From: Terfezia claveryi | Taxonomy: Eukaryota > Ascomycota > Pezizomycetes > Pezizales > Pezizaceae | Direction of reading: 5' to 3' | NCBI GenBank assembly: GCA_015179025.1 | Contig: WHUX01000169.1 | Location: forward strand, 53,146 to 117,145 | DNA: 64,000 nucleotides | In this document: positions 12,545-47,300 of the stretch, in pieces | How positions within the stretch are numbered: the stretch's first letter is position 1 | How the letters are laid out: each line of letters starts with the position of its first letter | Program-made: the position numbers and the translations under genes | The notes under the pieces: generated by a model | Databases searched by the model: none | What the model was told of the DNA's origin: nothing | The model's input: the letters and a program-made list of their open reading frames with translations, nothing else

Positions 12545-13277
12545 TAGCGTGCGCACCGAGTCGAGTTTTCCCCGCGCCGACTCGCCAAGACTCGCGCCGA
12601 CGGCCGAGTTTCGTCCAACCCTCAAACTCGGCGAGTCGGCTACACGATTCTCTGGAATACTCGGGCCAGCGCCGAGTAGCCGACGAGTACTCGCCAAGCC
12701 TTTTCGTTACGCTGGAAGCCTACCTTCGCCGCCCATATATACATGGAAATCATGCATTCGCGGCTTATATATATACATGGACGTCATACATTTGCGGCTT
12801 ATATATATACCTGGAAATCATGCATTCGCGGCTTATATATATACATGGAAATCATGCATTCGCGGCCTGTATATATATACATGAATTCGATACATATTAG
12901 CCGCGAATGCACGAATTCCATGTATATATATAAGCCGCGAATGCATGATTTCCATGTATATATATAAGCCGCGAATGCACGAATTCCATGTATATATATA
13001 AGCCGCGAATGCATGATTTCCATGTATATATATAAGCCGCGAATGCACGAATTCCATGTATATATATAAGCAGCGAATGCACGAATTTCATGTATATATG
13101 GCCGGCGAACCTAGGATGCTAGCCTGTTCCCCGTAACAAAAGGGCTTGGCGAGTACTCGCGAGTAGCCGGCGAGTCGGCGCGAGCTGGCTTCTCATGGAT
13201 TGCCATCGGCGAGAGTCGGCGTCGAGTAGGAAAAATAGTTGGCAAACTCGCCTCGACTCGGGCCGATGCGCACACTA
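12545..13277. mobile_element. hAT-like MITE in the gypsy C leader (733 bp)
   Basis: Flanked by an exact 8-bp duplication TCTACACA (12537-12544 and 13278-13285); copy E has an uninterrupted leader at this point. Terminal inverted repeats begin TAGCGTGCGCACCGAGTCGAG (left) and TAGTGTGCGCATCGG (right, reverse complement). An 8-bp TSD with TAGNG ends is typical of the hAT superfamily. Subterminal parts (12552-12720, 13120-13270) are rich in CGAGT words in inverted orientation. The middle is an inverted array of about ten 34-bp units. There is no transposase, so it is non-autonomous. Confidence 0.88.
12735..13100. repeat. Inverted array of 34-bp units inside the hAT MITE
   Basis: About four units read ATGCATTCGCGGCTTATATA-TATACATGGAAATC from the left. 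About six units read the reverse complement from the right. They meet near 12885-12899. Unit variants swap GGAAATC and GAATTC. The overlapping short ORFs on both strands simply read this array. Confidence 0.85.
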
Positions 13278-35698: not shown

Positions 35699-36570
35699 TT
35701 ACTTCTTTCGCTCTGCCATATTGGTTTCCATACGTCCTAAGATTTGATGCATTGTTAATACATTAGCATTAACATGAATATCCTTAGTGTTTCCATGACT
35801 CATGATTCTATCTCGTTCTTGTTGGATGAGAGCTCGGGTCTCATCTCTGGTTCGTGGTCCTTGTTTTCCTTTAGTCCTTCGACGTCTCTTGAATGTGTCT
35901 TCCATACTTCCAGTCGTCCAGAAGTCTTGAAGAATTTCGGTGGTGATATCCTTGGCGTTTACCCAGGAATCATATTTAGGAGTGTATCCTAGCCATCTGA
36001 CCTTATATTGTCTTTCTCCAGTTCGAGGAGCTGTTCTGAATTCTAATACCTTTTCAACTTCATAACGATCATCTTGAATTGGTCCTGGTTCCTGAGATTG
36101 TCTGTAAGGGAACTGGATGGGATCGTTTTTGTAGTATGGTTTGAGTTTGCTAATATGAAAAGTATTATATATGAGGTGGAGGTCAGGTTGACTGGATAGG
36201 TCTAGGCTATAGTTATTGCATTTCCGATTACTGGAAATAATGGGAAATGGGCCTAGCCATTTTGGTTTGAGCTTGGGTGAGACATTTGATAGGTTGATAT
36301 TTTCTGAGGAAAGCATAACCTATTGTCCGACTGAAAATTTGGCTGTATTGGGTAGTCGTTTGTTCGCTTGAGATGCTTGAGTCTTCTTGGCGTCATATAG
36401 GTTTTTAGACGTTACCTCATGACGTTCATTTGCGGGTACATATGCATTAATGGGGTATGGAAGTATCGATACGCCAAGATGTGCATTAAATCCAAATAGT
36501 GTGGAAAAGGGACTATTCTGTCTAGCGGCATTATACCTAGAGTTAAGTTTCAACTGTATCTCTGGTAGTT
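35699..36570 (-). pseudogene. Gypsy E integrase C-terminus and chromodomain
   Basis: Begins abruptly at LPEIQLKLNSRYNAARQNSP next to the PLE end and runs through FSTLFGFNAHLGV, a stop near 36317, MLSSENINLSNVSPKLKPKW (GPY/F-like), NTFHISKLKPYY and a chromodomain (DDRYEVEKVLEFRTAP, RQYKVRWLGYTP, DSWVNAKDI). It ends at TTA 35699. Unlike C, its tail after KGKQGP is open, so it shows the true family 2 C-terminus. The chromodomain would direct integration to marked chromatin. Confidence 0.88.
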
Positions 36571-37102
36571 GGGGGGGAGGAAGAAAATTGTTAGAATTCC
36601 TGAAGAGTATCACGAAGCAGACAACTTGACTTGTGGGTCACTATTGGTTTCATCTGGATTGACTCTTCAGTGCTTGATACTTATACCTTTTCCTACCTCT
36701 AATGTGACTCACGGTAATTGTGATTATTTCCGTGGTGTGGGTGGGCTGACCACCCTCTTCTAAAAATCTAAATTAAAAGTGTGACTCGTTCATGCATAAT
36801 GGTGTGACTCATTAAACATGATTGCGTCATGCAGTCAGCAATACTAATTTGGGGGCGGTGTGCTAATCTTACCTCCATGCATGACGCATGTGCGCCGGGT
36901 GTGACTTCGACGTGCATGTGCATGCATGATGACTGCATTGCGCTAATGCAGGGTAAGCGCTAGTAATATACCCTTGCTAGCGGCTATGTTTCAGTGTGGC
37001 ACACTAAAAACATAACCGAATTCACCCAGAGTGAGCCGCAACGAGAGCGGTTACCCGGAGGGGCGAGCGAAGCGAGTAGCGGAAGTGGAGGGGAACGGAG
37101 GG
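36571..37102 (-). repeat. PLE pLTR, downstream copy
   Basis: About 532 bp, nearly identical to the inverse of 40755-41281. On the minus strand the order is GC-rich segment, ACTCTGGGTGAATTCGGTTA, CATGCATG-rich stretch, several TGAGTCAC/TGACTCAC sites, hammerhead, poly-purine end AGAAAATT...CCCCCCC (inverse). Confidence 0.82.
36606..36681 (-). ncRNA. Hammerhead ribozyme candidate, downstream pLTR
   Basis: 76 nt. Core reads CTGAAGA, stem II GTC-AATCCA-GAT, then GAAA, then stem III, then GTC as cleavage triplet. Stem I is AGTATC-AAGCA with TGCTT-CGT-GATACT. One G-U pair closes stem II (GAC in the other copies). Same strand as the RT ORF. Confidence 0.78.
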
Positions 37103-37223
37103 TGAAGCCTTCATTTTCCCGTTTCTTGGGTATTAGCGTATAGCCCAAACTAGTATTCTGACTCACTTATCCTGAAGTAGGAACTTACAGGTTATGTTTT
37201 TAGAACACGCCACCATATTATTT

Positions 37224-40200
37224 TTACAGATGTAGACTTTCGAATAAGTCTCCGAGGGTGGTATCATCTGGAAATGTTTCAAGGAATTTTGCATTGAATC
37301 TTTGGCACAAATCACCGAAGTTAATAGTTTTTTTACGACTAATAATCAATGTTGCTTCGAGAAGTTTAGGAGGGATTTGGCTTCCCTGCCAGACTTCTTG
37401 AATTCCTTGTTGTACATTTCGTACATCTATAAAATCCCATATTGGATTAAGAACGGATTTAACTACCATGATGTTATCCACTCCCGCTGGTTTGACCATA
37501 CGGTACCGGTTTTCCCATCTTGTATTGTAGTTACGGGTAATCCATTCTTTGACCAAAACGAGTGGGTACTCTCGGCTGAGGTAAATAGAGGCAAGTTCCT
37601 CAACCGATTGCTTGTATATGTCTGCATTAGACGACAAGGCAGCGAGCCGACTCATCTCTCCGAGGAAAGTTCCTTTTTTCATCCACTTTGGATGCCCCGA
37701 AGAGAATGGGATTCGTTCGAAATGGTTTAGTGGTTTCCTGTATGGTCTGAAGTCAACCTCCCTGTAGACGGGGTGTGCATAACTTCTAGATCCAAAAATA
37801 CTATACGGTATTTATCCACTTCACATTTGAGCTTAAGACCTGGGAAATTCAGGCGCTCTTTGGCATATTCCAGCGCTAAACTTTCATTTGGCGCGAGGAT
37901 TATAGTAAATATGTCATCGATATACCTTTTGTACAGAAGTACTCGAGGATCTTTATCATATGTTGTTCATATTTGCCGCGTATAGATTAGCAATATGTGG
38001 CGAGCTTGCGACTCCCATTGCTAATCCATCCGTTTACAAGAACAAATTACTACCATACCGAAAAACAAGGTAGTTGTTCGCAATTGAACAGAGTTCTCGG
38101 GCAAGTTTGCCTTTGATCTCTCCGTGATGTTTAGAAGCCGCAGCTTCGACTACATCGTGAATGGCAATAAGCGGGACATTCGGGTAGAATGCTTCTACAT
38201 CCGCTGAAAGCATAAAAGCTTTCATACCAAACGGAACTTTAACCTTTAACAGTTCTTGGGCTAGCGTTCTACTGTTAAGTAGAATCGTAGGTGATGTTTT
38301 AACTTCATCTTCCAAGAGGTTACACAACATGGACGCAGCAGTTTCACCCGTGAAACTGTAGCAAGGAATGATTAGTCTAAACTTGGTCGGTTTTTTATGG
38401 ATTTTCGGGAGTCCACTAAAGCATGGCAGCTTCCGAATATCTTCGTTCCAAGCATTAGCCAGTAGGAAATTTTCCTCTTGTTCGGTCAGGGAATAGGTAT
38501 CTGACTGAACAATCTGGTCCAAGTGTGTTTGCAAGTTTTTCATAACTTCGTGACACTTATCAACGTTGATCTTGGTTATCGATCTATCATTGGCTAAGTA
38601 ATCATTGCATTGCATAATATACCATGTTCGGGATACTACAGCAGTACCAAGATTCTTGTCCGTACTTGTTACGAACAAGTCGTATTTTTTCAAGTACTCC
38701 AGCAGTTTTGCTGCATCTTTCATCCCTTGGTGATTGATGCCAGTTGTTTTAGGTGCTTCTTCGATCATTCGACATAATCAAGAACGTCCCTCGGCCAACC
38801 CTGCTTCGACAGGTACTGACGCTTTAGGAGCTGATACTGGTGTATCGGAACCTAAAGAGTAGCAGTGGTCATATGCTTTATTGTCTTTACCATTAAAATG
38901 ACATTTCCATCTAATGGTATTGCAAAAATGTTCGTATCACGTAAGACAATAGAAGAGTTTATTTCAGTACTAAACATAAAGCGGAAACCCTTGCTAATGG
39001 AATTCGCCACGTCATATGGCAATTCCACTCCTTCCAACAGATGTACTCCTCGCCGAAATCTAAGCGAGTCCAACAATGCCAGTGGCATACGCTGACGAAT
39101 TTCCATTACTGCTTGGTTGAAGGGATGTTTAGTAAACGGTCTGGATAAGATGATGGGTTGGACCAGGTCCACATACCTTCTGAGTCTTTTTCTGACTCTT
39201 TGTCTTCTTCACTTTCGTCGCCGAAGTGGCGGCGTTGGATTCGGCTCGCTTCCTCTTCTTCCCGTTTGAAGTTTTTGAGGAGGTGTTTTTCGCCAGCTTT
39301 GCTGGCGTTTTGCCCTTTCCGTTGCCTTTTCTCTTCGAATCTATAATCGACACAATTTGAGTTAGATAATGATCGCTTTAGCCCTTTCGGAGGGATCGTA
39401 CCTTTCTCTTTTCGAAGAGCGTCTTGGACGGCTTTGCGAACCGTGTCAGCCAGACTATCTTGAGTGATAGCTGGACACTGTTGGGGGTCTTTCGCAGCAT
39501 CCTTCAACTTCATCTTATTCAGAGCTATTTCCAGCTCTGCTATTGCCTTGCTTCCGGCAATATCTACTACTCGAGTAGCATAAGTGAAGATGTCTGAGAA
39601 AGCAGGCCTTTTTCGTTGGTAAGAAACGACGTATTCTTGCCAGTGGCGGTAGATGTATCCGTAGCGTTATGAAGGGCTACCAGTTCTTCATAACGTTGAT
39701 CAATAATATTGACCACGTTTTTTGGATCGCGGGCGACGTAGTCTAGTATGGAGGAATGTCACTTCCTGTTCCCTTGCTGTAATAGCTTGGGAGAGCATTT
39801 CCATACGGAAGGCCAACACCTTCGATTCGACTCCTGCTAGGAATACCTTCGCAGTAGAGGTTTGATCGAGTAGATCATTCCCGTCATCCAAGTCCATTCC
39901 CTCACGGGAATCCTCCAAGTATTCCTTAGAAAATTGGATTTTTGGCACATGGATGCCCTGGATTTCAGAGGGCCAGGTCCCTCGTGATTTGTGCTCCTCC
40001 AACTTTCTCAAAGTGGCTCGAGACCTGTAATAGGTCTGAGCTAATTTGTAGTGTTGGACCAAAAAGGAATGGAGACTTTCGCGATAGCTCGTCGGAATAA
40101 GGTCAATGACCTCATTCAGCGACGTCGCGAGCGGAGAGTGGTTCGCTCGTTGGACAGATTGGTTCATCTGAACGTAGGAGGAGGAGGTGACGGCGAAGGC

Positions 40201-40287
40201 GGACGGAGATGGGAGCGGATGGCACGAAGGGAGGACATTGTTGTTTTCGTGGGTGGTATGGATCGTTTGTGCGAAAAAGAATTCATC
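37224..40287 (-). pseudogene. Penelope-like reverse transcriptase ORF (frameshifted)
   Basis: The reading order on the minus strand spans several frames. N-terminal helical part (40167-39700); Lys-rich part (39513-39130); ELPYDVANSISKGFRF (39172-38852); RT with STDKNLGTAVVSRTWY, LPCFSGLPKIHKKP, LSADVEAFYPNVPL (38768-38034), GLAMGVASSPHIANLY and LYKRYIDDIFTI (YIDD at 37913-37924); thumb and tail with ARCLVV-like and INFGDLCQRFNAKFL parts to the stop at 37224. LPKIHK and AMG-SP are hallmarks of PLE RT. No GIY-YIG endonuclease motif follows, so this is an endonuclease-lacking type, or the domain has been lost. At least three frame breaks; start uncertain. Confidence 0.78.
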
Positions 40288-40301
40288 TTTGAAAGTCGGG
40301 G

Positions 40302-40754
40302 GGGAGGAAGAAAATTGTTAGAATTCCTGAAGAGTATCACGAAGCAGACAACTTGACTTGTGGGTCACTGTTGGTTTCGTCTGGATTAACTCTTCAGTGC
40401 TTGATACTTATACCTTTTCCTACCTTAATGTGACTCACGGTAATTGTGATTATTTCCGTGGTGTGGGTGGGCTGACCACCCTCTTCTAAAAATCTAAATT
40501 AAAAGTGTGACTCGTTCATGCATAATGGTGTGACTCATTAAACATGATTGCGTCATGCAGTCAGCAATACTAATTTGGGGGCAGTGTGCTAATCTTACCT
40601 GCATGCATGACGTATGTGCACGGGTGTGACTCCGACGTGCATGTGCATGCATGATGACTGCATTGCGCTAATGCAGGGTAAGCGCTAGTAATATACCCTT
40701 GCTAGCGGCTATGTTTCAGTGTGGCACACTAAAAACATAACCGAATTCACCCAG
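40302..40754 (-). repeat. PLE pLTR, upstream copy
   Basis: Same orientation as the downstream copy, but lacks the last ~75 bp (GC-rich segment). It meets the inverted third copy at 40754/40755, so 40302-41281 is a palindrome with a 72-bp centre. Confidence 0.82.
40333..40408 (-). ncRNA. Hammerhead ribozyme candidate, upstream pLTR
   Basis: Core CTGAAGA, stem II GTT-AATCCA-GAC (one G-U pair), GAAA, stem III, cleavage triplet GTC, and the same stem I as the other two copies. Sense to the RT ORF, so it would cut a tandem read-through RNA at the pLTR. Confidence 0.78.
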
Positions 40755-41281
40755 CGTTCCCCTCCACTTCCGCTACTCGCTTCGCTCGCCCCTCCGGGTA
40801 ACCGCTCTCGTTGCGGCTCACTCTGGGTGAATTCGGTTATGTTTTTAGTGTGCCACACTGAAACATAGCCGCTAGCAAGGGTATATTACTAGCGCTTACC
40901 CTGCATTAGCGCAATGCAGTCATCATGCATGCACATGCACGTCGGAGTCACACCCGGCGCACATACGTCATGCATGCAGGTAAGATTAGCACACTGCCCC
41001 CAAATTAGTATTGCTGACTGCATGACGCAATCATGTTTAATGAGTCACACCATTATGCATGAACGAGTCACACTTTTAATTTAGATTTTTAGAAGAGGGT
41101 GGTCAGCCCACCCACACCACGGAAATAATCACAATTACCGTGAGTCACATTAGAGGTAGGAAAAGGTATAAGTATCAAGCACTGAGGAGTCAATCCAGAC
41201 GAAACCAACAGTGACCCACAAGTCAAGTTGTCTGCTTCGTGATACTCTTCAGGAATTCTAACAATTTTCTTCCTCCCCCCC
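40755..41281 (+). repeat. PLE pLTR, inverted copy
   Basis: Inverse of 36571-37102, including the GC-rich stretch (CTTCCGCTACTCGCTTCGC). Its outer end forms the right edge of the PLE against truncated gypsy F. Confidence 0.82.
41171..41246 (+). ncRNA. Hammerhead ribozyme candidate, inverted pLTR
   Basis: Best-paired copy. Stem I AGTATC-AAGCA (41171-41181) pairs with TGCTT-CGT-GATACT (41233-41246). Core CTGAGGA 41182-41188; stem II GTC/GAC with loop AATCCA; GAAA 41201-41204; stem III C-c-AAC-ag-TGAC, loop CCACAA, GTCA-a-GTTG; cleavage after GTC at 41232. All invariant type I hammerhead core positions are present. Confidence 0.8.
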
Positions 41282-43636
41282 TACCTTAAGCCTGAAAAAT
41301 GCGAATTTCACGTCCAAGAGGTGAAGTACCTGGGCTTGATCATAACCACGGAAGGTATTAGGATGGACCCCGCCAAAGTTGCTGCAATCCAAGAGTGGGA
41401 AACCCCAGCCAATTTGAAGGATGTGTAGGCCTTCCTAGGATTTGCCAACTTCTACCGCCGATTTATCCTGGGATACTCAAGAATCGTGGCACCCCTGACA
41501 GTCTTGATGAAAACGAAGGTAGAAGCTGGCTCACACCTGACAAAAAGGGCCTTCCACTGGAATCCAGAAGCCCAATCCGCCTTCCAGAACCTCAAGGAAG
41601 CCTTCTGCTCAGCCCCAATCCTGGCCCATTTTGACCCTAATAGCGAGTGCATCGTGGAAACGGACGCCTCCAACTATGTCTCCGCCGGAATCCTGTCCCA
41701 GTATGTCGATGGAGTCCTCCACCCAGTGGCCTATTTCTCCACAAAGCACTCCCCGGCAGAGTGTAATTACGAAATCTATGATAAGGAGTTAATGGCCATT
41801 GTGCGAGCATTCGAGGAATGGAGGCCCCACCTGGAGTCAGCGAAGGGGGTTATCGAGGTCCTTTCTGACCACAAGAACCTGGAATACTTCACAACTACCA
41901 AGTTGCTGAATCGCCGGCAGGCTAGGTGTTTGGAATTCCTGTCCCGGTTCAACTTCAAAATCAAGTACCAGCCAGGAAAGGCTGGTGGGAAGCCAGACGC
42001 ACTGACCAGGAGATCAGGAGATCTCCCTAAGGGGGGGGATGAAAGGCTGAAGTACCAGAATCAGGTGGTACTGAAACCTGAAAATCTCGACCTGGCGGCC
42101 AATACCCTTGCGGAAGCTGAGGCTGAGGCTGATGCAGAAGCTGAGGCTGGGGCGGATGCAGAAGCTGAGGCTGACCTCCGACAACTAGTGAGACAGGCAT
42201 ATGAGGACGACCCCCTGACCAAGGAAATTATCACCGCAGTGGCTTCTGGCCAGCACCGCCACCCCAAGATCTCCCTAGCCGAGTGTACCATCCAGGAAGG
42301 CCTCCTCTACCACCTCGAACGGCTGTATGTGCTGGAAGGAGAGCTGCGCCTTAGATTGATCAAGGAACACCATGACAGCCTGGCTGCAGGTCACCCTGGA
42401 GTAGCCAAAACGTTAGAGCTTCTGGCCAGGGAATACACATGGATTGACCAACGGAAGGACGTGGAGCGGTACGTACGGAACTGCCACGTTTGCAAGCATA
42501 CTAAGCCTGTCTGCCACGCTCCTTATGGGACCCTGAAGCCCCTGGAGATCCCAGACCAGCCTTGGCAACACCTAACCATGGACTTTGTGACTGGGTTGCC
42601 GGAGGATTCAGGGTTTAACGCTATTCTTATGGTAGTAGACCGATTGACCAAAATAAGGCATGTTATACCTTGCCATGATACCTGTTCTGCCCGGGACCTC
42701 GCCGGCCTCTACCTCAACCATGTATTCCGCTAGCATGGTCTCTCCAAGTCTGTCGTCTCGGACCGCGGCCCCCAATTCATCTCGGACTTCTGGAAGGTAT
42801 TCTGCGAGCTTCTGGGAATCAACGTACACCTCTCCACGGCGTATTACCCCCAAACAGATGGTCAGTCCAAGCGAATGAATGCAATCATGGAGCAGTACCT
42901 GAGAGCATACGTCAATTACCAGCAAAACAACTGGGTTTCGCTGCTGGCAACCTGTGAGTTCGCCGCTAACAACCATTTCTCGGAGTCTCTAAAAACCTCC
43001 CCGTTCCTGGCCAATTATGGCTGGCACCCTCGTTTTGTGGACTCTCTAGCACCTCTGCACAAGGCTAGGGAGAACACTCCAGCTAAGGAGTTCGCCACGG
43101 AGATTGCTGAGTTGCACTCCACCCTAAGAGCCGAACTGGTATATGCTCAAGCTAGGCAAGCGGAGCATGCCAATGGATCATGGTTGCCAGCCCCCAGGTA
43201 TCAGCCAGGAGATAAGGTGTGGCTCTCCAGCAGGCACTTCCGGATGGAACGGCCATCTCGCAAGCTCGACCATAAGTTCCTGGGTCCATTCGAGGTGGTG
43301 GCCGCTGTGGGCACTCATGCCTATCGATTGAGGTTCCCCAAAGACATCAAACGACACCCAGTCGTCCATGTCTCCGAGATCGAACCTGCTGCTAGCGACC
43401 CTCTCCCCGGCCAGAAACACCCTCCACCTCCCCCCGTGGTTATCGAAGGTGAGGAGGAATGGGAGGTAGAGGAAGTGCTGGACTCCCGAAGAAGGTATGG
43501 GCACCTGCAATATAAGGTCAAATGGCTAGGAGATGAGGAGACGACCTGGCAACCAGTGGAGGACCTGGAAAACGCACAGGACTTGGTCACCCTGTTCCAC
43601 CAGCATTACCCCCGAAAGCCTCGCCCCGCCCAATGA
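41282..43636 (+). pseudogene. Gypsy F pol: RT end, RNase H, integrase, chromodomain
   Basis: One frame of 785 codons with only two stops (41426, 42731; both fit CAG to TAG). RT thumb: CEFHVQEVKYLGLIITTEG and FLGFANFYRRFI. RNase H: ETDASNYVSAGILSQY, YDKELMAIVRAFEEW, LSDHKNLEYF, GGKPDALTRR. Linker of AE/AD repeats (about 42110-42180). Integrase: HHDSLAAGHPGVAKTLELL with CHVCKHTKP, LTMDFVTGLP, SDRGPQFISDF, YPQTDGQSKRMN (Lys where the catalytic Glu is expected). Then GDKVWLSSRH, LGPFEVVAAVG, HPVVHVSEIEP and a chromodomain (EEWEVEEVLDSRRRYG, QYKVKWLGDEETTW). Ends QYPRKP-like tail at 43636. Confidence 0.9.
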
Positions 43637-43849
43637 TGTTCTTGTCGTCCTGGAATTGGTTATTAGGGTCGTTTTGTCGCTGTTGTTATTGTCGTTGTTG
43701 TTGGGATTATTGTTGGTACGTACTTCCAGCATTGGGGTTGTGTTATGGGTTATTGGTTTTAGTCGCCTCTTTTGTTTGTTTGTTTTTGTCTTGCCTTTCA
43801 CCTGGTCTTGTCTTTCGTCGCTGGGGCTCCAAGCCTAAAGGGGAGATAG
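43637..43849 (+). other. Gypsy F 3' untranslated region and polypurine tract
   Basis: T/G-rich (TTGTTGTTG-like) noncoding stretch, ending AAAGGGGAGATAG just before the LTR, a good polypurine tract. Overlapping small ORFs have no support. Confidence 0.65.
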
Positions 43850-44363
43850 TATTACAACCGTCCTTTCCTAGCCGGGTTTGAGAGTCAGACGGGATTCCGT
43901 CCGACTCTCGTTATTGTTGATTGATATCGTTGTTATCTCTGTTCCCGAGATAAGGGGTCTCGGGAACCTTATTCCTTCCAGTGGCCTTGGCTAGGAAGGA
44001 AGCCTGTATATATAGCTTGCTCTCTCCACCCTCTCGTTGGATCCCCATCCAACGTCTTGTATACCTAATACAGGACCTTGTCTCTCCACGAAGGTGTACC
44101 TCCCTTGTACACCCCCTCGTCTTGCCTTGTCTCGTGAATAACTCTGCAGCACAGCTGCCCTCCTCCGACACACGCGGCAACTGCCTCCACGTGTCTCGTG
44201 CTCCTTACCCTCTGCCCCTCTTGCCTCTTGCCCTTGCCCCTAGCCTTTCCCCTGATCACACACGTAGCGTTCCTACGTGTGTGTTACCTCGTCCCTGTCC
44301 TCGCCCCGGCGTACCCCTTGGTCGCCTTGTCCCCGGAGCCCTCGTTACACTGCCCTCGTTACA
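43850..44363 (+). repeat. Gypsy F 3' LTR
   Basis: 514 bp, from TATTACAACCGTCC (TG to TA at the first base pair step) to CCTCGTTACA. It contains CTATATATA (near 44008) as TATA candidate in inverse of the G LTR layout, an ACACACGTAG stretch, and a short duplicated TGCCCTCGTTACA end. G has LTRs of matching structure. Confidence 0.82.
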
Positions 44364-47300
44364 TCCAAGATCCTAGTCCTACATCACTAGCATCACAGAC
44401 TAAATATTTGGGTTCAGTAGATTCATTATTCCAGGGTTTTAAAACATGTGGGGAATTCACGAGTTCCTTGAGTTTTTCAAACGCTGCGTTATGAGTATCT
44501 GTCCATTCCCATTTCTTTGTTTCTCCTTGCAGTTCTGACAGGGTGCTTGCATACGATGCCAAGTCAGGAATAAATCTGCTGAGTTAATTAACTATTCTAA
44601 GGAATCCTCTAAGATCCTTTTTTCTTGTAGGAGTCGGAAATGTTAATATAGTAGTCCTCTTCTTCGGGTCTACATGTAATCCATCTGATGTCAAAACGTG
44701 TCCTAAGATTTCCAATCTTGGAGTAAAGAACTGGCATTTGCTTTCTTTGAGATAGAATTTCTCATCCTGTAGACATTGAAGTACTTTCTTCAATAATTCT
44801 ACATGTTCTTCATACGTTTTAGAGAATATAATAATATCATCAATATAGATGATTAAATTTTTATAGACCATGTCCTTAAAAATTTCATGCATAACGCGAA
44901 CCATGGTAGCTGGTGCGTTACGATCCCCTTATTGTATAACTCTACTTCTGAAATATCCCATGTAACATAAAAAAGTAGAGTGTTGCTCAGATTCTTCATC
45001 GTTCCTGATATTAAAAAATCCGTCGGCTAAGTCGACCTTAGTCCAAATGGGATTCTCCGCTACTAGTTCAATTGCTTCATTAATATCTAGCAATGGGGTG
45101 TGGTCTGGTTCTACGGCTAAATTGCGGTCTCGACAGTCATTTACATGTTGGGCTTCTTCCAGTTTATCTCATTTAGGAATAGTAAACATGACTACAGCAT
45201 TTGTGTCATTTTCTACTCTATATATGCGACCTGATCCTTCTTCTTCGACTAATTTGTCATGGATTTGTTGTCTAAATCGATGTCCTGAGGGTCGCCATTT
45301 TGGTATCCAAGTAGCTCCTGCCTTTGGTTTGATAGAGTGATTAATTTTCTTAATGGAGGTAATTCCCGTGGAATTGTCTGGGAAATAATAAGGGAAACTC
45401 CGTTACAGGGTTGAATGTTTCTGTACCATAGAAACAGCTGTCACGAGTTCTCTTTCTAAATCGGTTTTGTCTGCGTCACTAATATTTTCCCAATTATCCG
45501 GTTCACTATAATCTGTGACTGATTCACAGCTGACCTGTGTATACGCTGATCTAATACCATTCGCCATGGTTCTAGATCCCTTCCATACACTTAGCTGGAA
45601 TCGTGGAATGTTTTCCGGTTAGATAGTAACTGGTTCCTGATGGGCAGGAATTATTGCTCGCACTTTGCTGAGAGCAGGTTCTCCTAGTATCATGTCCCAT
45701 CCGGTCAAATGAGCTACATAGAACGTTCGTTCTTCTACATAACCTATCCAATCAAGTTTGATAGTACAAGCTTTGTCTATCATTTCTTTGAGCCTTTAAT
45801 TGCAGTACTAATGATTTCTTCTCGATACTTCTAGTCGGTATTTTGTACAGGTATACGAATTGAGAATTGACTAAGTCTCCTCCCTTCATTTGGAGATCAA
45901 TTAAAGCTAGTGCGGGGTGTTTGTTAGCTTAACGAATACCTTGCTAAAATCTGGTACCTGTCTTGACAAGGGTCGTTCCTTGATTTTATCCTTGTTGTTT
46001 TTATCCTTGGTGGCTATCGGCATAGCTAAATCTTGTGCGGCTGTAGCATGGGTACCTTATTTTTTCGTTTCCTACAGTCCTTGTAGGAGTGTCCAGGGTT
46101 CCAACACCATAGACATTTCTTGTCTTTAATTAATTGCATCTTCGTCTTCTGATCCAATTTTTTTGTGATGGTGTCCCAATCTGAGTCCTTCCGATTTTCT
46201 GTGTTGGGTTTGGTGTTGGGATTGCTGCTAGGATTAAATCCTTTTTTTGTCGTTGATTCTGGTCCCTGCGTGGACCGTGACTTCGATTTTCATTCCGAGG
46301 GTGTTGTCGTCGGGATGTATTTGTTGTAGATGGTGGGGCAATATCCTTCTTGGAAGCTTCATATGACTCCGCTTGATGTATGAGCTGATCATATGACCAT
46401 TCTTCTTTGATTAAAGGAATTAATATAGCTGACATGTATGGCGGCAGGTGATTAAGAAACTTTCTTCTTTTTACTTCCTGCGATATTGATTGTTTGCCAT
46501 CCTTGTCAATCAATTTGATTTGCATTTCAGTAAGCCAGTTGGCAAACTGTTTGATTCCCATGTGACGTCCGTTCTTGTATGGTGTGGCTGTCTCCATCGT
46601 TTCCACAAAATGTCCTTACTAGTAGAGGGTATCAGAAAATCCCTTAGCGCTAGTATGAACAAAGAATGTCACATTCTTTCCTTTTTCTCTTAGGAATTGA
46701 TTATAAGTAGTAGGCGCTCCTTCCATTCTGAATCCAACAATTTCCAGAGCTGAAGCGCCTTCTAAATCTATTCTTTTGAGAACAAACCAACGTTGCATTG
46801 CTGTGGCCCAAGAGTCAAAATATTGTGAGTCTTGCCATTTTTTGTCTTCTCCTCTTAATTTTTCTGGCATATCAATCTTTATTCCTTTTAAAGCATTCGT
46901 TGCTTTATGGTTACCGTTGTAACCATTCCTGTTGTAGATTCCCATTGCTGGTGTTCAACTGATTTTCCTCGTTTGGGTTTTCTTTTAAGAGTTTGACTTG
47001 CAACTGACGATCCTTATCAGAGTCCGAGCTATCATCTCGCTATCATCGGGGTCTCGTCTCCTCCTTGTGTTTTCTGCTGCTGTTGGTCTAGTCCTGTATC
47101 TAGATCATCATCGTCTTCTGGTAATTCTATATCTTCTGGTGGTTGGTCTTTGTCGTCTGGTTCTTTGGCTGACCCAGTCCTCCTTTCTGGTGTCTCAGGT
47201 GCTCGACCTTTGCCTTTCGATTGATCTTTTGGTGTTCTCAGGAACGCTCCTGGAAGTTCTTTGCTAGGATTGAAAAAATCCTCCGCGGTATGTGCTGATT

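Follow-up and report, generated by a model that had tools for sequence, protein, structure and literature searches.

It has been established that Penelope-like elements (PLEs) carry hammerhead ribozymes (PMC6155905, PMC7761336, PMC7229834), which are usually described as minimal, without helix III or loop-loop contacts (PMC6155905, PMC7761336), and whose role in these elements has been called a mystery (PMC7761336). According to PMC3846280, animal PLEs share the layout pLTR-ORF-pLTR plus an inverted pLTR, the origin of which has been proposed to lie in self-priming; the same paper says that the endonuclease-deficient PLEs of fungi do not share this direct and inverted organization, a statement which later papers may have revised. 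In the Poseidon element PAc of Anolis carolinensis it has been demonstrated that hammerhead mutants still insert in vitro, that cleavage needed the element's own protein, and that no RNA-seq reads start or stop at the hammerhead cut (PMC11167929). Circular RNAs with hammerheads have been reported for retrozymes (PMC7229834). In the portions of open PubMed Central that were accessible, no description of hammerheads in a named fungal PLE was met, which is not to claim that none is in print.

The DNA analysed here, referred to as the window, is a stretch of 64,000 nucleotides of contig WHUX01000169.1 from the ascomycete Terfezia claveryi. It holds three copies of a motif that we take, with a probability of roughly 80%, to be a genuine type I hammerhead ribozyme with predicted activity, located in the pLTRs of an endonuclease-deficient fungal PLE. 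The first copy (41171-41246, plus strand, predicted cut 41232/41233) lies in an inverted pLTR and was identified by a check of its letters, a structural descriptor and an alignment to RF00163; the second (40333-40408, minus strand, predicted cut 40347/40346) lies in the direct pLTR that precedes the ORF, and the third (36606-36681, minus strand, predicted cut 36620/36619) in the pLTR that follows it. The letters of the first copy are those of the complete fold that the initial annotation had described: its 76 bases comprise the core segments CTGAGGA and GAAA, a GTC/GAC stem II capped by a loop of 6 nt, stem III and the GTC triplet, and its stem I consists of AGTATC/GATACT plus AAGCA/TGCTT, that is, 11 bp in two parts with a bulge of 3 nt (CGT) on the 3' strand. 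The CUGANGA, GAAA and NUH core elements are thus all present, and three helices with an open-ended stem I mark the motif as a type I hammerhead by core and fold, stem III being bulged beside the core and the predicted minimum-energy fold being a different one.

Stem III amounts to nine pairs, including A15.1-U16.1, with one bulge, and in the first copy it runs from C35-G60 through a bulged C36 adjoining the core to AAC/GTT and TGAC/GTCA; these pairs had been listed correctly beforehand, the unpaired C beside the core having gone unmentioned. Fungal and protist PLEs reportedly carry hammerhead variants that are stable as monomers (Cervera and De la Pena 2014), and the real stem III of the present motif would fit such variants. 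According to papers that cite this study, the hammerheads of PLEs are likewise of type I and located in pLTRs; the minimal forms usually described in PLEs differ from the Terfezia motif with its bulged nine-pair stem (PMC6155905, PMC7761336). Both minus-strand copies keep CTGANGA, GAAA and UC, which bears out the earlier observation that all core bases are retained. It had also been held that the differences between copies all fall in harmless places; the 36606 copy, however, alters two stem pairs, the closing pair of stem II (G19-C30) having become G-U and the stem III pair C39-G57 having become U-G, a position that belongs to a pair and not to the loop.

That such a fold should be the chance product of a hairpin in a repeat is extremely improbable. 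A loose descriptor (stem I of 5 bp, stem II of 3 bp and stem III of 3 bp with one bulge, the remaining 6 bp of stem I going uncounted) matches the window at exactly the three motif places, which are copies of one repeat, and found 2 matches in 300 dinucleotide shuffles of the window searched on both strands. Across the 72.6 Mb genome, the pattern of core plus GTC/GAC stem II has 34 matches, every one of them at one of the 42 copies compared below, while the reversed pattern, used as a control, has 0; the motif moreover stands on the right strand and in the right place of a PLE. What speaks for chance is the want of any covariance-model match above threshold and an ordinary local folding energy (z -1.09). 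As regards the former, a covariance-model match above threshold had been proposed as a check on the fold, and it was not obtained: Rfam 15 gave no match on the window at gathering scores, nor any hammerhead at E values up to 10, and RF00163 on a 141-base slice with the 41171 copy reached 12.1 bits (E 4.4), with all core positions aligned correctly, against a gathering cut-off of 34 bits, so the motif lies outside the Rfam family as curated. The cut-off reflects what a 45-position model is able to detect and is no property of the ribozyme. A genome-wide search with RF00163 found no match either, and since the control genomes likewise gave none, that search demonstrates no absence.

A purpose-built model of 22 selected rows, two of them from decayed copies and one of these two incomplete, scored the three motif places at 105 to 107.5 bits and nothing further in the window up to E 10; the recovery of these places is by construction, because all three are among its rows. 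The covariation score of the 22 rows was equalled in 29 of 500 shuffles and does not clearly exceed them, and two pairs changed on both sides, a number equalled in 84 of 500 shuffles; covariation is uninformative here because the copies are too alike. Other Rfam matches in the window, to microRNA and further models, were all below their gathering scores and were rejected. AT-rich nested inverted repeats at 12799-12974 score on several microRNA models, again below the cut-offs.

Thermodynamic prediction is less straightforward. For the 41171, 36606 and 40333 copies, the full hammerhead pairing has a predicted energy of -12.2, -8.5 and -10.1 kcal/mol and the minimum, which is not the hammerhead, one of -16.2, -13.7 and -16.2 kcal/mol, a gap of 4.0 to 6.1 kcal/mol under an energy model that ignores the non-canonical contacts of the core. 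In a context of 185 nt the minimum is again a different fold, of the ordinary stability given above. When the core is forced to be unpaired, the best fold becomes hammerhead-like without A15.1-U16.1, at -15.3, -11.6 and -13.2 kcal/mol in the same order. It may be argued from the more stable competing folds that the motif is a former hammerhead which persists only as a structured landmark in the RNA, where proteins bind or reverse transcription starts, for example, and which cuts to no purpose; the insertion in vitro of the Anolis element with dead hammerhead mutants would suit this (PMC11167929). We regard this explanation as rather unlikely, since with the core unpaired the hammerhead-like fold lies only 0.9 (41171), 2.1 (36606) and 3.0 (40333) kcal/mol above the minimum, and since every core letter is kept in 40 of the 42 copies.

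These 42 copies were compared by place; a search of the genome with the motif-bearing region scored the best 40 of 47 first-look candidates, and two of the copies compared came from a second query. Outside this set remain two decayed motifs on contig C34, a copy with an internal deletion on C26 and a remnant without motif on C4. All 23 pairs are kept in 33 of the 42 copies, and the core together with all 23 pairs in 32. Per site-copies, changes number 2/504 in the core, 23/1848 in the stems, 21/840 at other motif sites and 291/15303 in the rest of the pLTR; relative to composition-matched sites the core changes less, at a non-significant p of about 0.055 for copies that are related and hence not independent. 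In the older copy on C34, core letters of both motifs have been lost through C-to-T and G-to-A changes, and the diverged remnant on C4, a pLTR piece of about 71% identity, breaks off at the hammerhead and is without the motif.

The host element of the window has two direct pLTRs and one inverted pLTR with a palindromic junction, the organization by which PLEs are recognized. Its outer ends are formed by two C-runs, one (41275-41281) closing the inverted pLTR (40746-41281, plus strand) and the other (36571-36577) closing the direct pLTR after the ORF (36571-37106, minus strand); the direct pLTR before the ORF (40298-40757, minus strand) stands head to head with the inverted one, and the palindrome formed by these two upstream pLTRs has its centre at 40735-40830. 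In the direct pLTRs the hammerhead occupies the junction of pLTR and ORF on the strand of the reverse transcriptase, a placement that is as in animal PLEs and that is also found in PAc (PMC11167929). Two direct pLTRs, an overlapping inverted pLTR and palindromic junctions likewise characterize the Penelope families of Adineta vaga (PMC3846280). The junction at 40735-40830 and other head-to-head pairs form a stem-loop bounded by TTCACCC/GGGTGAA, the ends of which vary between copies, as if the palindrome re-formed or the loop flipped, and on C229 and C341 the motifs are arranged as a symmetric double element.

The reverse transcriptase ORF region of the window copy (37224-40317, minus strand) is broken into several frames, the pieces of which gave no match to RVT_1. 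On the other hand, the copy on C8 has an open frame of 939 amino acids with RVT_1 at E 5e-9, and 15 of the 17 aligned members of the reverse transcriptase group match RVT_1 at E up to 0.1. Fold searches were made with a relative from R. necatrix (P0008), which shares 40% identity in the part searched, in place of the window's own protein; telomerase came first in both, at low TM-scores (at most 0.29 by query among the ten best), and together with RVT_1 on C8 this points to a telomerase-like reverse transcriptase, as in PLEs. Six of the seven related proteins are 67-84% identical, and where a contig is given it is from ENA or JGI; outside this genome, no relatives were confirmed in viral contigs or in bacterial or archaeal genome contigs. 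All 17 aligned members show weak similarity to Drt3a, a bacterial defence reverse transcriptase (best E 1.4e-14), the C8 member scoring 41 bits against a cut-off of 200; the weak similarity to the Drt3a and retron models was not read as kinship, being far below their cut-offs.

A GIY-YIG endonuclease, which defines the canonical subclass, was not found: neither the 939-residue frame on C8 nor the frames of the window matched PF01541 at E up to 1, and the single GIY-YIG match in the whole genome is on C13, a contig that holds none of the copies found. In this respect the Terfezia element differs from PAc (PMC11167929) and from the A. vaga families (PMC3846280), which possess an endonuclease. 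It resembles the terminons, telomere-associated PLEs that have no endonuclease and in which a C-rich stretch follows a hammerhead close to the 3' end, although in terminons that stretch is the reverse complement of the telomere repeat at chromosome ends and here it is a plain C-run (PMC6431247). The more unusual point is the element itself, an endonuclease-deficient fungal PLE with direct and inverted pLTRs, against the statement of PMC3846280 cited above.

The ends of the insertions bear on what the ribozyme does. Of 37 distinct sequences that follow the cut site, sorted by eye, 17 run on into ORF or pLTR sequence of the element itself and 20 into outer flanks; the 20 distinct outer junctions are situated in the C-run or just past it, at a distance of 47-53 nt from the predicted cut on its downstream side. 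The search for outer junctions is by itself blind to ends at the cut, because its expression demands the C-run tail. Among the best 40 of 47 motif matches, no copy stops at the predicted cut, all of them reaching at least base 130 of 135, and no copy begins there among the best 40 of 45 places of a second query; at the two places new in that query, on C223 and C549, the motif lies upstream, the C223 copy being a 564-nt fragment that starts 11 nt upstream of stem I. These observations argue against hammerhead cleavage setting the ends of inserts. The initial annotation thus stands as regards type I architecture, location in pLTRs, a Penelope-like host element and a fungal genome, and its further proposal, that self-cleavage is put to the same use here as in animal PLEs, meets the difficulty that junctions lie past the cut and none of the matches just mentioned stops at it. 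The genomic inserts of PAc also end downstream of the cut, at the start sites of reverse transcription, which in that element lie 111-118 bp inside the ORF, within an AC-rich stem loop (PMC11167929). That all 20 junctions are past the cut site is also what a landmark without useful cleavage would leave behind.

At 9 insertions with both flanks, no target-site duplications beyond 4 bases were seen; in the A. vaga families such duplications occur in several and are absent in some (PMC3846280). No telomere repeats were seen by eye in the 20 outer flanks, and four-fold TTAGGG arrays occur on contig C483 only, in a fragmented assembly of 794 contigs and for a repeat that may not be that of this fungus; neither lends support to an association of the element with telomeres. 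The window's own insertion is apparently flanked by two different Ty3-type elements, which lie on opposite strands: the right flank (41282-43640, plus strand) has RNase H, integrase zinc and chromo domains, and 36000-36567 on the left and 44359-46600 further right, both on the minus strand, contain pol-like frames by reading only, and the site of the insertion may be a rearranged or broken one. C78 and C167 share one right flank and the motif letters, and because these are common to both, one or the other may represent the window's insertion as an allele or a duplicate. On C341 and C549, as read, a pLTR abuts with its C-run end directly on mid-ORF sequence of the element itself, as expected from 5'-truncated copies added onto an existing pLTR end.

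Since the cut precedes the outer junctions by 47-53 nt, the templates must have carried RNA beyond the downstream hammerhead, or else have been circles. In the latter case, cleavage by two hammerheads would yield a unit-length RNA that is ligated to a circle, and reverse transcriptase running from the C-run past the joined site would produce pLTR-ORF-pLTR copies, which would explain the retention of these 47-53 nt despite an intact motif and would have a parallel in the hammerhead-bearing circular RNAs of retrozymes (PMC7229834); it leaves unexplained the inverted pLTR, for which self-priming is proposed (PMC3846280), and we consider it quite improbable. As regards the preferred reading, a genuine type I hammerhead in a PLE, self-cleavage is likely, as predicted from the motif. 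The transcript of the element would fold into the hammerhead, which would cut after the GUC triplet and might trim tandem or read-through transcripts so that they begin with a 5'-OH shortly before the ORF, and reverse transcription would start independently at the C-run. Because of this start at the C-run, cleavage of the downstream copy would be unneeded for insertion from a linear template and must not precede it.

A wider proposal, speculative and distinctly unlikely as it is, would be that an endonuclease-free fungal PLE with animal-type pLTRs and a hammerhead inserts internally without target-site duplications, its C-run, at the 3' end of the RNA, capturing both ends of a DNA break and its hammerhead making unit-length or circular templates. 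If true, the pLTR and hammerhead life cycle would be separable from the endonuclease, against what PMC3846280 states of fungal PLEs. With its 42 motif copies and no endonuclease, the Terfezia family offers a fungal setting in which to test the need for hammerheads in the movement of PLEs, and, because the Rfam model misses the Terfezia hammerhead, the ribozymes of fungal PLEs may be undercounted.
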